DNA of 64,000 nt, taken from the NCBI RefSeq assembly GCF_000383855.1, contig NZ_KB912877.1, positions 3,599,917 through 3,663,916 of the forward strand, read 5' to 3'. Every line of letters starts with the position of its first letter. The stretch's first letter is position 1. The notes beneath the pieces were generated by a model. That model was not told where the DNA came from and did no database searches. It saw only the letters and a list, made by a program, of their open reading frames with translations. The translations under genes and the position numbers were made by a program. Shown here piece after piece: positions 32,922 through 38,120 of this stretch. This DNA comes from Methylobacter marinus A45 (GTDB lineage: Bacteria; Pseudomonadota; Gammaproteobacteria; Methylococcales; Methylomonadaceae).

Positions 32922-33001
32922 ATTGTAGTCATACGGGCAAGTAAGGTTTTTTGTATTCTCGGTTATTCAGGCGTCCGTGCCAAGAGGTTAAAGCAAAAAG
33001 T

Positions 33002-33739
33002 ATGAATATTAAAATTGGTAGCAGGTCATTGACGTTCGAAATAGTGCCTACTGTCGCTTACCTATGCCTGTTATCGTTATTGTTGACATTAGGTGCGTGG
33101 CAATTGAGGAGATCGGATGAGAAACAGGCGTTTATCAAGCTGGAAGAACAAAGATTGGCTTCAGAAACTTTGGACTTGTCGGCAAATGTCACAGACGATG
33201 TGGACGAACTGAGATACAGGCATGTGACGGTGGCCGGCAGTTACGATCACGCTCATCAGTTCTTGATAGATAATCAAATCAGCGATGGCAAAGCCGGTTA
33301 TTATGTGTTGACACCATTTATATTGCAGGGAGAATCCAAAGCGGTATTGGTAAACCGGGGATGGGTGCCTTTAAATGAGGATCGATCAATCTTGCCCGAA
33401 ATAGCAGTCGAAAAACGGCAAACAATTATCGAAGGGCGGATTAATAGTTTCCCCAGTGTCGGTATAAAACTGGCCGGCGCCGAGATTCCGACTGACAGTT
33501 GGCCCTCGGTGGTTCAATGGGTCGATAGCGAGATTCTGGCAAAAAAGTTAGGTTATTCATTATTCCCGTTTCAGGTTGAACTGGATAAAGATCAACCCGA
33601 CGGCTTTAAACGGGAATGGCGCACGACAACGGTTATGCCGCCTGAGCAACATATAGGTTACGCGGTTCAGTGGTTCGGGTTGGCTTTGACGCTGACGATT
33701 ATATTTATTTGGTACAGTATTAAAAAAGACAATGAATAA
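33002..33739 (+). CDS. SURF1-family cytochrome oxidase assembly protein
   Basis: A 245-residue protein with a helix at each end (about 15-33 and 220-240) and a periplasmic domain between. Family landmarks are GAWQLRRSDEKQ, YRHVTVAGSYD, VLVNRGWVP and HIGYAVQWFGLA. SURF1 proteins help insert heme a into subunit I. The ATG at 33002 has AAGAGG upstream. It overlaps the next gene by 8 bases. Confidence 0.92.
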   Translation: MNIKIGSRSLTFEIVPTVAYLCLLSLLLTLGAWQLRRSDEKQAFIKLEEQRLASETLDLSANVTDDVDELRYRHVTVAGSYDHAHQFLIDNQISDGKAGYYVLTPFILQGESKAVLVNRGWVPLNEDRSILPEIAVEKRQTIIEGRINSFPSVGIKLAGAEIPTDSWPSVVQWVDSEILAKKLGYSLFPFQVELDKDQPDGFKREWRTTTVMPPEQHIGYAVQWFGLALTLTIIFIWYSIKKDNE

Positions 33740-34328
33740 TCAGCAGAAAAAAAATCGGTTATTGATTCTGGCAATTTTTGGCATGTCTATCATTCCTTTC
33801 CTGATCGCCTGGGTGCTCAAGGAAAACCCCGGATTTTTAAAGGGCAGGACCAATTACGGGCAGTTGATAACCCCTGTTGTGACCACCGAGCGCAGCGAGT
33901 TAATTGGGTTTGACGCATTTTCAGCGCAAAATATGGATCAACTGCCGGGGCGTTGGCTGATTGTCAATGTGATTCCGCATGATGATTGCAATGACGTCTG
34001 CCTTGAGGCCATGTACAAGACCAAACAATTACAGTTAATGATGAGCAAGGATTTGGTCCGCACGCGCCGTGTCGCCATGATTTTTAAGGATGTGGCGCCC
34101 GAAGTCGCGGCACAATGGTGGAAGGAGGATACACGCCTGTTAAGAGTCAAGCCCGATCCAGCCATCATTGAAAAAATAACAGCCATCAGACAAGGCGAGG
34201 TACCCGATGGCATGCTTTTATTAATGGATCCGCTAGGCAATTTAATGATGCAGTACGAGCCTGGATTCGATCCTTATAAAGTAAAAAGTGATCTGACGCA
34301 TCTTCTGAAAATTTCACAAATCGGCTAA
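33732..34328 (+). CDS. Membrane-anchored thioredoxin-like oxidase assembly protein
   Basis: A 198-residue protein with one N-terminal helix (LILAIFGMSIIPFLIAWVL) and a periplasmic thioredoxin-like domain. In related proteins at this locus, a Sco-like copper role is proposed. Here two cysteines (DDCNDVCLEAM) sit at the Sco CxxxC position. The gene follows SURF1 with an overlap and precedes heme A synthase, which supports oxidase assembly. Whether it binds copper is inference. Confidence 0.8.
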   Translation: MNNQQKKNRLLILAIFGMSIIPFLIAWVLKENPGFLKGRTNYGQLITPVVTTERSELIGFDAFSAQNMDQLPGRWLIVNVIPHDDCNDVCLEAMYKTKQLQLMMSKDLVRTRRVAMIFKDVAPEVAAQWWKEDTRLLRVKPDPAIIEKITAIRQGEVPDGMLLLMDPLGNLMMQYEPGFDPYKVKSDLTHLLKISQIG

Positions 34329-34348: not shown

Positions 34349-36349
34349 ATGTTTAGAAAAATAACTCTCTTTAGCGCCGTTTTAGCGTTAATAGTGATTC
34401 TGTTGGAAGCGTATGTTCGTTTATCCGGGGCAGGGCTTGGCTGTCCTGACTGGCCAGGTTGCTATGGTCAATTCTTGGTGAGCGATGATGCGGATTTTAA
34501 ATCACGGGCCGCACAGGCCTTTCCCGATAAGCCGCTCGATACCGTAAAAGCATGGAAGCAAATGGGTTACCGCTATCTGGCCGGGTCTTTGGGCGTGTTT
34601 ATTATTTTGCTGGCTTTGACGTCCTGGCGTCAGAAACAAGCGCGCCTGGCCGCCATGACAACTTCATGGGTTCTGGTATTGCTGTTCGGGGTGCAGGCGG
34701 CTTTAGCTCTGGGGATTGTCAAAACGCAAGCCATGCCGATTGCAGTAACCGGTCATCTGTTATCGGGAATGCTGATTTTCTGGCTGCTTTCCTGGCTGTA
34801 TTTACGGTTAAATCCTCGAGTTTCTACATCAAAATCGCGTACGGGTCCGGGAAATTTTGCCCGCTTCGCCATGCTGGTTTTGTTCCTGCAAATTGTTTTA
34901 GGCGCATGGACCAGTACGAATTACGGTGCGATGGCCTGTACCGGTTTTCCGCAGTGCAATGGCTCCTGGTGGCCTGAGGCCGATTACCAGGGAGCGTTGA
35001 ATCTGTTTAAAGGCTTAATCACAGGTTATAGCGGCGTTATCTCTTATGACGCGCAAGTCGCGGCGCACTGGTTGCACAGGGTTGGTGCGCTGATCAGCTT
35101 TATCCTGCTGAGTCTGGTGATGCTGAGCGCTACTTCGGCAAGCTATCCGAAGCCGGTAAGAAAAGCCGGTTTGCTGCTGAGTCTGTTGCTGTTTGTGCAG
35201 ATCGCCCTGGGCATTGTCATCGTCAAATTGACCATGCCTTTATGGGGGGTAGTGGCGCATAATGCTTTTTCGGCGCTACTGATGCTGCCGCTGATCGCTA
35301 TCAGTTTTTACAGCCGCTATGCTTATGCGGAAGCGCCTCAACCCGCTGTTGAGCTTGAGGCGCCGCCTCAGCCGGCCGTGGTCGCTCCACCCGCGGTCGC
35401 CGAGGAAGTCTATGTCGAGCCTGAGCCCGAGTCGCTTTATTTGCGCCTGAAATCACAGCTAAAACGTACACGCTCCGGGCTTAGCGGGGTTCTGGCCACA
35501 ATTCCTCTGGGCCACAAAGAAATCAATGAGGATTTGCTGGAAGAAATTGAAGCCCGCTTGTTAATGGCGGACATCGGCATGGATGCAACGACGGAAATCA
35601 TCAGGCGCTTGACTGAGCGTGTCGAGCACCATCAGTTGAATGACAGTGCCGCGTTGTCCTCGGTACTCAAGCAGGAGCTGCTTTCAATGCTCAAACCGTG
35701 CAGCCTGCCATTGCAAATCCCGAAACAGGATAATCCTTTCGTCATTCTGGTGGTCGGCGTTAATGGGGCGGGGAAAACCACGACCATCGGTAAATTGGCC
35801 AAGCGCCTGCAAGCCCAGGGTTATAGCGTCATGCTGGCGGCCGGCGATACCTTTAGAGCGGCGGCTGTCGAGCAGCTGCAAACCTGGGGCGAGCGCAATA
35901 ATATCCATGTCGTGGCCCAGCATACCGGCGCTGATTCGGCATCGGTTATTTATGATGGCGTCCAGTCCGCGCAGGCGAAAGGTATTGATGTGTTGATTGC
36001 CGATACCGCCGGCCGATTGCACACGAAATCAAATTTGATGGATGAATTGAAAAAAGTAAAAAGGATTATGGGTAAACTGGATCCTGAGGCGCCCCATGAA
36101 GTATTGCTGGTACTGGATGCCGGCACTGGACAAAACGCATTATCCCAGGCCAAGCTGTTTAATGAGACCGTCGCCTTGACAGGGCTGGTTTTGACCAAAC
36201 TGGATGGCACGGCAAAAGGCGGCGTCATTTTTGCCTTGGCCAAACAATTCGGCATTCCCATCCGGTATATAGGCATAGGCGAAGGCATTGATGATCTGCA
36301 GGACTTCAATGCGGAAACCTTTGTCGACGCATTATTCGTCAACGACTGA
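34349..36349 (+). CDS. Fusion of heme A synthase (CtaA) and SRP receptor FtsY
   Basis: One 666-residue frame holds two normally separate proteins. Residues 1 to about 329 are a full heme A synthase: eight helices, with EAYVRLSGAGLGCPDWPGC, VTGHLLSG, HWLHRVGA and VVAHNAFSALL carrying the heme-ligand histidines. A Pro/Ala/Glu-rich linker (about 330-361) follows. From about 362 it is the NG GTPase of FtsY, with P-loop GVNGAGKT (470-477), DTFRAAAVEQL, DTAGRLHTK and LTKLDGTAKGG. FtsY docks ribosome-SRP complexes at the membrane. ftsE and ftsX follow as usual for ftsY. No separate ftsY or heme O synthase (ctaB) gene is in the window. Confidence 0.93.
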   Translation: MFRKITLFSAVLALIVILLEAYVRLSGAGLGCPDWPGCYGQFLVSDDADFKSRAAQAFPDKPLDTVKAWKQMGYRYLAGSLGVFIILLALTSWRQKQARLAAMTTSWVLVLLFGVQAALALGIVKTQAMPIAVTGHLLSGMLIFWLLSWLYLRLNPRVSTSKSRTGPGNFARFAMLVLFLQIVLGAWTSTNYGAMACTGFPQCNGSWWPEADYQGALNLFKGLITGYSGVISYDAQVAAHWLHRVGALISFILLSLVMLSATSASYPKPVRKAGLLLSLLLFVQIALGIVIVKLTMPLWGVVAHNAFSALLMLPLIAISFYSRYAYAEAPQPAVELEAPPQPAVVAPPAVAEEVYVEPEPESLYLRLKSQLKRTRSGLSGVLATIPLGHKEINEDLLEEIEARLLMADIGMDATTEIIRRLTERVEHHQLNDSAALSSVLKQELLSMLKPCSLPLQIPKQDNPFVILVVGVNGAGKTTTIGKLAKRLQAQGYSVMLAAGDTFRAAAVEQLQTWGERNNIHVVAQHTGADSASVIYDGVQSAQAKGIDVLIADTAGRLHTKSNLMDELKKVKRIMGKLDPEAPHEVLLVLDAGTGQNALSQAKLFNETVALTGLVLTKLDGTAKGGVIFALAKQFGIPIRYIGIGEGIDDLQDFNAETFVDALFVND

Positions 36350-36356
36350 AAATGTT

Positions 36357-37013
36357 ATGTTAAAGTTCGATAGAGTCAGCAAACGTTATCCTGAAACCGG
36401 GGATGTATTGCGTAATATCAGTTTCCATTTGCAGCACGGGGAAATGGCTTTTCTTACCGGTCATTCAGGCGCCGGGAAAAGCACCTTGCTGAAATTGATT
36501 GCGGTCATCGAGCGCAGCAGTCGTGGACAAATTTTGTTGGATGGCCACAATCTTAATCATGCCAAGGACAGACAGATTCCCTACCTAAGAAGAAAAATAG
36601 GGCTGATTTTTCAGGATTATAAGCTGCTGCAGGACCGGACGGTTTTCGATAATGTGGCGCTGCCGCTGTTGATTGCCGGTTATGGTCGTCACGAAGTTTC
36701 TCGAAGAGTGCGCGCGTCACTGGATAAAGTGGGCTTATTAGGCAAGGAAAGAAAATATCCGTTGGCTTTGTCCGGCGGCGAACAGCAGCGAGTCGGGATT
36801 GCCCGGGCGGTAGTCAATAAGCCGCCGATGATTTTAGCCGATGAGCCAACCGGTAACCTGGATCCGGAACTGTCAGCGGAAATCATGCATTTATTCGAAC
36901 AGTTTCAACAGGTAGGCGTCACTGTATTGATTGCCTCGCATGATATTTCGTTGATTTCCCAAATGAACTATCGCGTTTTAAAGTTGGATCATGGGCAACT
37001 GGTGGCGAGTTAA
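36357..37013 (+). CDS. ftsE: Cell-division ATP-binding protein FtsE
   Basis: An ABC ATPase (218 residues) that with FtsX activates septal peptidoglycan hydrolases. Walker A is GHSGAGKST, signature LSGGEQQR, Walker [32 protein letters not shown] is the usual FtsE start, at ATG 36357. It follows the CtaA-FtsY fusion by 7 bases and abuts ftsX. Confidence 0.95.
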
Positions 37014-38120
37014 ATGATGAAAGGCAGAAAAAACACAGCTAGCTTTCCGAATATCTTGGCGATGATTTTCAGAAGTCTATATGGCGAGCGAGAAAAACGA
37101 ATGCCTGCAAGACATCAACGTCATCACCCAAAGAACAAAAAAACAGCGCAAACCAGACCGGATGGTCCGCAAACCCGGGTTTCGGGGGGGGATTTCAGCG
37201 ATAAATTGCATGCCTATTTTGATCTGCATGCACACGCCCTTTTTTCCAGCCTCGGACGCCTGGTTGATTCTCCGTATACATCCATTATGACTATAACCGT
37301 GCTGGCTATTGCTATTTCGCTGGCCAGCGGTTTTTATATCGTGGTAGCGAATCTTCAGCAGCTGGCCGGTAATTTGGAGGCAAGCAATCAAATATCACTA
37401 TTCCTGCGCGATGATATCTCCGATGCAAACGCCAGAAAATTTGCAGCGAGCATCAAGCGGAATCCATCTGTCCAGGAAGTCAAATTAATTACCAAGAGCG
37501 AGGCAATGGAAGAATTTCAGACATACAGCGGCTTTGGCGAGGCCGTTAAATCGCTGGGTAAAAATCCGCTGCCTAATGTTGTACAGGTTCTGCCTGAAAA
37601 TGCCCTGGAAGACAGGCAGGAACTCGAAAACCTGCTTAATACGTTTAAACAGGCTTTTGAAGTCGATTTTGCTCAAATGGATATGGACTGGGTCAGGCGC
37701 CTGCAGTCATTCATGGAATTGGCACGACGTGCCGGTATTTTGTTAAGCCTGCTGTTGGGAGTCGCTGTGCTGTTCGTTACCGGCAATACCATACGACTGG
37801 AATTGCATAATCGTCGCGAAGAAGTGGTTATTGCCAAGCTGGTTGGCGCCACCAACAGCTTTATTCAACGACCGTTCCTGTACAGTGGGTTTTGGATCGG
37901 TTTTTTTTCCGGTGTGGCGGCATGGTTTATCGTTGCTGTAATGATGCTGATATTGAAGCGCCCTATAGAAGAGCTCTCCGGTTTATACGAAGGCGATTTT
38001 CATTTATTGTTTTTAAGCTATTCGGAAACACTGGTCCTGTTGTTTATTTCCTCTCTGCTCGGCGTATTAGGATCGTGGGCTGTGCTCAGCTACCAGCTTC
38101 AACAACTGAAACCCGAGTAG
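37014..38120 (+). CDS. ftsX: Cell-division protein FtsX
   Basis: The membrane partner of FtsE (368 residues). A long basic cytoplasmic N-terminus (about 90 residues) precedes four helices. The large periplasmic loop between helices 1 and 2 (SNQISLFLRDDISDANARKF) contacts EnvC-type activators in the family. GNTIRLELHNRREEVVIAKLVGA is the conserved FtsX segment. The gene starts right at the ftsE stop (TAAATG). Confidence 0.95.
   Translation: MMKGRKNTASFPNILAMIFRSLYGEREKRMPARHQRHHPKNKKTAQTRPDGPQTRVSGGDFSDKLHAYFDLHAHALFSSLGRLVDSPYTSIMTITVLAIAISLASGFYIVVANLQQLAGNLEASNQISLFLRDDISDANARKFAASIKRNPSVQEVKLITKSEAMEEFQTYSGFGEAVKSLGKNPLPNVVQVLPENALEDRQELENLLNTFKQAFEVDFAQMDMDWVRRLQSFMELARRAGILLSLLLGVAVLFVTGNTIRLELHNRREEVVIAKLVGATNSFIQRPFLYSGFWIGFFSGVAAWFIVAVMMLILKRPIEELSGLYEGDFHLLFLSYSETLVLLFISSLLGVLGSWAVLSYQLQQLKPE

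Follow-up and report, generated by a model that had tools for sequence, protein, structure and literature searches.

A heme A synthase domain fused to the signal recognition particle receptor FtsY, its probable membrane anchorage, and its distribution in Methylococcales

The ctaA-ftsY gene of Methylobacter marinus A45

The stretch of DNA analyzed here, hereafter called the window, comprises 64,000 nucleotides of the Methylobacter marinus A45 genome (contig NZ_KB912877.1, positions 3,599,917 to 3,663,916) and contains, on the forward strand at positions 34349-36349, a single uninterrupted open reading frame of 666 amino acids in which a sequence of the heme A synthase family (CtaA/COX15) is fused to FtsY, the receptor of the signal recognition particle (SRP). 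The Pfam profiles COX15-CtaA, SRP54_N, and SRP54 match residues 5-313, 388-444, and 463-663, respectively, the first with a domain score of 197.9 bits (cut-off 29.9), and the NCBIfam FtsY equivalog TIGR00064 scores 374 bits (cut-off 260.7). An AlphaFold model built with 36 aligned rows (mean predicted local distance difference test score, pLDDT, 82.8; predicted template modeling score, pTM, 0.53) divides the product into three parts, all encoded on the forward strand. The CtaA/COX15-derived domain (residues 1-323, positions 34349-35317) has eight long helices predicted to span the membrane (residues 2-25, 65-94, 99-125, 130-153, 168-190, 233-261, 268-293, and 298-323). It is followed by a Pro/Ala/Glu-rich linker (residues 324-362, positions 35318-35434), disordered and modeled mostly with low confidence (residues 329-360), and by the amphipathic N-terminal helix and NG GTPase domain of FtsY (residues 363-666, positions 35435-36346). 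The modeled NG domain matches Escherichia coli FtsY-NG with TM-scores of 0.92-0.95, by target length, over the top twelve PDB rows. The best 50 Foldseek matches are SRP GTPases without exception; support for the CtaA fold accordingly comes from Pfam, phmmer, and the model. The profiles and the eight-helix model agree with an earlier note on this DNA, which had read a full CtaA, a Pro/Ala/Glu linker, and a full FtsY NG domain in this one frame.

The fusion is genuine rather than an assembly artefact. An error at the joint (35320-35440), which the earlier note had named as a possible source of a spurious frame, is ruled out by the recurrence of the same single frame in three genomes of the same genus, at 87-90% identity, and in many other independent genomes. 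The note had also considered an internal start giving FtsY alone; the linker of the window frame contains no in-frame ATG, three GTG/TTG codons, and no Shine-Dalgarno (SD)-like site, which speaks against such a start and points to a single product of 666 residues. In a set of 153 distinct fused frames, the linkers measure 39-80 residues (median 56). The full-length fusion might nevertheless be cleaved, or an internal start might provide free FtsY, the fusion then being an operon-like packaging of two proteins. Such packaging could draw on the 24 of these 153 frames whose linker includes an in-frame ATG and the 14 whose linker has an SD-like site before some start codon, but the other 129, that of the window included, have no ATG between helix 8 and the N domain, and a single frame has been maintained over wide divergence, for which packaging has no need. 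We regard this explanation as quite improbable.

The fusion is also the only FtsY of the window genome. SRP54 matches occur there three times, in the fusion and in two proteins with the frame length and similarity of Ffh and FlhF, which rules out a separate FtsY elsewhere. None of the fused genomes had a second FtsY-like match among the matches listed in the search of 61 relatives described below, just Ffh-like ones at ~33-37% identity. CtaA, on the other hand, is present twice, in the fusion and as a standalone copy at C1:4935211, outside the window. This standalone gene (L219:4227-6168) lies behind an HDOD-domain gene and near GCV_T-like genes, far from the cox cluster. Two UbiA-family genes, one of them presumably ctaB, are likewise located elsewhere in the genome. 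The observation of the earlier note that the window holds no other FtsY and no ctaB is thus borne out, and of the second genome copies that it proposed to look for, that of ctaA exists and that of ftsY does not.

The gene order around the fusion, with cox genes before it and ftsE-ftsX-rpoH after it, is as the earlier note had described. Upstream on the same strand are SURF1 (32951-33739, recognized by Pfam) and, directly before the fusion, orf198 (33732-34328), a cox-cluster gene encoding 198 residues without a Pfam match. Downstream are ftsE and ftsX (36288-38120, forward strand), the former matching ABC_tran in Pfam, and rpoH, recognized by its sigma-70 match in Pfam; cox1, ctaG, cox3, and ftsX were named by gene order and sequence. 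These neighbors are widely conserved: over the 79 loci with enough flanking sequence, orf198 is present in 77, SURF1 in 76, cox3 in 69, ftsE in 72, ftsX in 75, and rpoH in 59. In three genomes (G040, G060, and G069; genomes and genera are designated hereafter by G and g codes), the 3.5 kb following the fusion showed no ftsE, ftsX, or rpoH. In relatives with separate genes (families f7 and f8, see below), orf198 also stands beside ctaA, at 33-36% identity, as an unnamed member of the cox cluster.

Distribution and origin of the fusion

To describe the distribution we use the codes f1-f6, f7, and f8 for families of Methylococcales. Among 61 relatives searched without regard to the fusion (54 of f1-f6, five of f7, and two of f8), CtaA and NG lie in one frame in all 52 f1-f6 genomes having an FtsY match, so that the same fusion, which the earlier note had suggested seeking in relatives, is the rule in these families. 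An FtsY-type match was absent in the remaining two (G007 and G034), and ctaA and ftsY are separate in all five f7 and both f8 genomes. A wider search covered 234 genomes of the order that are at least 90% complete. In its 11 f7/f8 genomes, CtaA occupies its own frames of 325-350 codons, and every f1-f6 row among the matches listed starts at query residue 126 or earlier. Twenty of the 223 f1-f6 genomes were inspected as weak cases: ten span both domains in one frame; in G094, G121, G132, and G227 the gene is fragmented, in most instances where a contig ends; in G123 nothing but a CtaA piece was seen, where a contig begins; in G088 a single contig carries two neighboring frames; and G034, G175, G180, and G210 have no FtsY-type match. 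Among the matches listed and these 20 weak cases, no f1-f6 genome has a complete CtaA-free ftsY. Named holders among the first 80 of 366 loci include Methylobacter (the genus of the window, with M. luteus), Methylotuvimicrobium buryatense (strain 5G), Methylovulum, Crenothrix, and Methylomonas.

Among the matches listed in searches of the class (369 genomes) and the phylum (398 genomes), CtaA is covered by three Methylococcales alone (G000, G013, and G039) and by the window's own genome alone, respectively. We had considered the fusion as a general gammaproteobacterial trait, of which the class-search matches listed give no instance. Some FtsY matches without the fusion, from other Gammaproteobacteria, fall within open frames of 600-944 codons (for example in G889 and, with 944 codons, in G504), which may represent extended A domains, different fusions, or sequence that is open by chance. 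The gene for the copper methane/ammonia monooxygenase (PF02461), considered as a trait going with the fusion, was uninformative because related genes, with weaker scores, are present in both f8 genomes and in most of those of f7 as well.

In the FtsY tree, which comes from a quick search and in which the outgroup does not fall on one side of a branch, the fused rows form one group of 96 tips (Shimodaira-Hasegawa-like approximate likelihood ratio test, SH-aLRT, 92) without any separate FtsY within it, and f7 and f8 adjoin this group. Since the fused FtsY sequences form one clade, the fusion likely arose once. The CtaA tree, made with 44 of the 153 fused rows and with two short standalone rows omitted, places all 49 second CtaA copies on one side; the fused rows are not recovered together on one side in it, and its long branches were flagged as unsafe, so we relied on the FtsY tree. 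In four f7/f8 loci (G043, G048, G053, and G056), the two operons, SURF1-orf198-ctaA-UbiA (with cox3 as well in three of the four) and ftsY-ftsE-ftsX-rpoH, are convergent, with ctaA and ftsY ~4-9 kb apart; in G042 each of the two genes has a contig of its own. The most economical inference is that a rearrangement took out the intervening ctaB and put ftsY behind ctaA. Between rpoH and UbiA-ctaA, the f8 genome G043 encodes a divergent COX1-family protein of 470 residues (L167:9486-10895), in the place of which the f7 genome G053 has an aspartyl-protease-like gene.

The two halves of the fused CtaA

According to PMC12808453, heme O is believed to be bound by the N-terminal half of CtaA, where Glu57 and two histidines (H1 and H2) are located, and a heme b cofactor by the C-terminal half, with two others (H3 and H4). 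The same paper also reports that Leu at H1 or H2 kills activity while heme binding remains and that Asn is possible at H1 of heme A synthases. We located these positions (Bacillus subtilis numbering) by alignment, in the case of the window copy also with the solved Aquifex enzyme. In this copy, Q71 (34559-34561) occupies the position of the catalytic Glu57, and that of H1 (His60) is taken by Y74 (34568-34570), neither His nor the known Asn variant; both losses hold in the alignment including the Aquifex enzyme. The first Cys pair (C32 and C38) is present, and H136 (34754-34756) is kept at H2 (His123). So are, in the C-terminal half, the second periplasmic Cys pair (Cys197 and Cys203, 34937-34957) and both heme b ligand positions, H243 (35075-35077) at H3 (His216) and H304 (35258-35260) at H4 (His278), all of them encoded on the forward strand. 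The window copy therefore seems to be without its catalytic residues yet with its heme-binding site, a pattern suggesting that synthase activity has been lost in this lineage and that the fused protein probably binds heme b.

We compared an N-half set (first Cys pair, Glu57, H1, and H2) and a C-half set (C191, C197, H216, and H278, that is, the second Cys pair, H3, and H4) over 96 genomes, all carrying the fusion and not a random sample (52 from the unselected search and 44 chosen for showing the fusion). The N-half set is complete in 35 of them and the C-half set in 93, the exceptions being G028 and G199, which are without a heme ligand, and G010, without the Cys pair in the alignment. Over the 153 distinct frames, Glu57 is kept in 64, H1 in 101, H2 in 95, and each first cysteine in 105, and in the other half each second cysteine in 150, H3 in 150, and H4 in 151. 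Among the 61 rows with a 'lost' N-half set, only G185, W187, C197, P201, C203, H243, and H304 are conserved at 95% or more; these seven columns hold both heme ligands and both cysteines, with a chance of ~1.6e-6 if columns were drawn randomly.

Mapped on the FtsY tree, the N-half set requires 11 parsimony changes, or 21 losses when no regain is allowed, which suggests that this half decayed repeatedly across lineages. One genome counted as lost, G035, has the N-part in another frame of the same contig (L126) at coverage 1.57, the frame break being probably a sequencing error; without it, 60 of 95 genomes are lost and the 21 losses are reduced by one. In genus g14, a 565-codon frame (L148:5589-7280 and relatives) keeps MFRKIT and helix 1 while helices 2-3 are gone. 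Hydropathy and a model (pLDDT 72.8) leave six helices, an even number, so both chain ends would stay on one side of the membrane.

This decay, together with the loss of a heme ligand in G028 and G199 and of the Cys pair in the aligned G010 sequence, is what might be seen if the CtaA part were passively carried along, slowly decaying and without a role. We find this very hard to credit because the fused gene is under purifying selection: comparison of the window with its congener G003 gives ratios of nonsynonymous to synonymous substitution rates (dN/dS) of 0.16 for the N-half, 0.07 for the C-half, 0.08 for the linker, and 0.04 for the NG domain, and the C-half stays at 0.07-0.12 within the genus, although dS is saturated in several wider comparisons. 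The near-constant retention of the heme ligands and Cys pair together, in 93 of the 96 genomes, and the lack of any complete CtaA-free ftsY among the f1-f6 matches listed also argue against mere carriage.

A probable membrane anchor for FtsY

In the FtsY half, the GTPase motifs (GxNGxGKTT, GDTFRAA, DTAGR, and TKxDGxAKGG) are present in 153 of the 153 fused frames. The amphipathic helix that precedes the N domain has its hydrophobic pair in 146 of them and in 13 of 14 separate FtsYs, the other one being without the motif. In four of the 153 frames this pair is R-D; the two that were inspected (L022 and L234) belong to genus g22, in which no CtaA other than the fused copy was matched. The NG domain is part of one chain with eight predicted helices, an even number, so both chain ends would lie on the same side of the membrane and the predicted topology would leave NG cytoplasmic. 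E. coli FtsY requires membrane contact (PMC2780400), and E. coli growth is supported by FtsY-NG on a transmembrane tether, whereas a tethered form without helix N1 fails to support growth (PMC5533587). The natural fusion fits this design and retains the N1 region, and the CtaA part would probably serve as the membrane anchor of FtsY. The earlier note had proposed that FtsY is held in the membrane by an oxidase biogenesis enzyme. The first part of this idea is supported, the sole FtsY being joined in frame to a CtaA-derived membrane domain without a linker ATG; that the anchor is still an enzyme does not agree, in the window, with Q71, Y74, and the existence of an independent CtaA.

We consider it probable that a fused heme A synthase became the permanent, and probably still heme-binding, membrane anchor of FtsY. 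In the ancestor of f1-f6, a rearrangement would have set ctaA directly before ftsY and joined their frames, yielding an early fusion protein that would have been a working heme A synthase bearing the SRP receptor at its C-terminal end, in the cytoplasm. FtsY would thus have turned into a permanent integral-membrane receptor, tethered through a flexible linker to eight anchoring helices. In many lineages, including the Methylobacter of the window, a second CtaA of another type could make heme A, and the substrate half of the fused CtaA would then have decayed. The C-terminal half of four helices would have been retained, together with its Cys pair and the two heme b ligands, since it would hold the cell's only FtsY in the membrane and, with heme b bound, probably stabilize it.

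The second copies (defined as a second PF02628 match among the matches listed; the single match of G010 is the standalone one) group together, having Glu57 and, in most cases, Asn at H1, and we infer that they took over from the fused copy. Standalone CtaA also occurs in long open frames in G057 and G031 (L186:5065-7218, 718 codons, and L200:4503-5975, 491 codons), possibly further fusions or merely open upstream sequence. Where a second match is present, 60 of 90 genomes have lost some N-half residue. The fused copy is the sole CtaA match in seven f1-f6 genomes at least 90% complete (four of g22, G040, G135, and G203), and five of these seven (the four of g22 and G040) have the N-half set whole. 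This pattern is suggestive of a link between decay and the presence of a spare CtaA. A fused protein that is bifunctional everywhere, making heme A with unusual residues and positioning the SRP-dependent insertion of oxidase subunits beside heme A synthesis, would agree with the cox cluster directly upstream in most loci, with the catalytic set intact in 35 of 96 genomes, and with the fused copy as sole match in g22, G040, G135, G203, and G050; it would also explain the last three, which are without catalytic residues, unless these are assembly gaps. Yet the Glu57 position is kept in just 41 of 96 rows, the first His is Tyr in the window, helices 2-3 are missing in g14, and most f1-f6 genomes have a second CtaA match, so that bifunctionality throughout appears unlikely. 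Insertion of oxidase subunits beside heme A synthesis is possible in those 35 genomes whose fused copy has retained the catalytic residues.

Several points weigh against our preferred reading of the CtaA part as a former enzyme turned anchor. The intact sole-copy genomes represent two lineages only (genus g22 and G040), which makes the sole-copy evidence suggestive only, and the sole-copy genomes G135 (90% complete), G203 (92%), and G050 (85%) are degenerate in the N-half, with an intact C-half in G135 and G203. Congeners of these three have a second CtaA match, and their own second copy was possibly lost to a missing contig or an assembly gap. Decay does not invariably accompany a spare copy: the N-half set is complete in the other 30 of the 90 genomes that have a second match. 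Median identity, 0.288 in the N-half versus 0.403 in the C-half of lost rows and 0.535 versus 0.497 in intact rows, speaks for the reading, but this contrast is partly circular because 'lost' is defined by N-half residues; moreover, the N-half alignment is uncertain in the most decayed rows. Finally, the heme ligands may be kept for a reason other than bound heme.

If FtsY is anchored in this way, an essential and usually cycling receptor would have become a permanent membrane protein, and the fusion would be a natural, widely kept counterpart of laboratory constructs in which FtsY-NG is fused to an unrelated membrane protein. It would offer a natural experiment in which a respiratory enzyme turns structural, with related genera showing the fold intact, half-decayed, or shortened, and, the heme b site being nearly always kept, the role of this poorly understood cofactor could be approached apart from catalysis. 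Through its retained heme b site, the anchor might even act as a sensor, with the CtaA-derived domain altering the coupled SRP receptor according to its heme or redox state; this is a rather doubtful extension, but if true, these methane oxidizers would adjust the co-translational insertion of membrane proteins to the supply of heme, or to oxygen and the state of respiration. Annotation of such genes simply as ftsY or ctaA would mislead work on methanotroph respiration.

We found no report of an FtsY-CtaA fusion in titles and abstracts of the open-licence literature, and FtsY goes unmentioned in the body text of PMC8239418, PMC9145763, and PMC12808453. CtaA-CtaB fusions are on record (PMC8239418 and PMC12808453), the alignments of PMC12808453 excluding fusion proteins, and FtsY with a transmembrane helix is described from Gram-positives and archaea (PMC2780400). 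Like FtsY as defined by TIGR00064, the fusion has a complete NG domain, the GTPase motifs, and the amphipathic helix with its hydrophobic pair, but eight membrane helices and a linker replace the free N-terminal region. Like CtaA/COX15 of type 1B (class B), it has eight helices, two Cys pairs, and a C-half with both heme b ligands, but it carries FtsY at its C-terminus and has lost at least one substrate-half residue in the window and most relatives. With integral-membrane SRP receptors, namely the transmembrane FtsY of Gram-positives and archaea, the engineered transmembrane FtsY of E. coli, and eukaryotic SR-beta, it would share a permanently tethered NG domain; unlike in those receptors, the tether would be a whole former enzyme that retains its heme b site.
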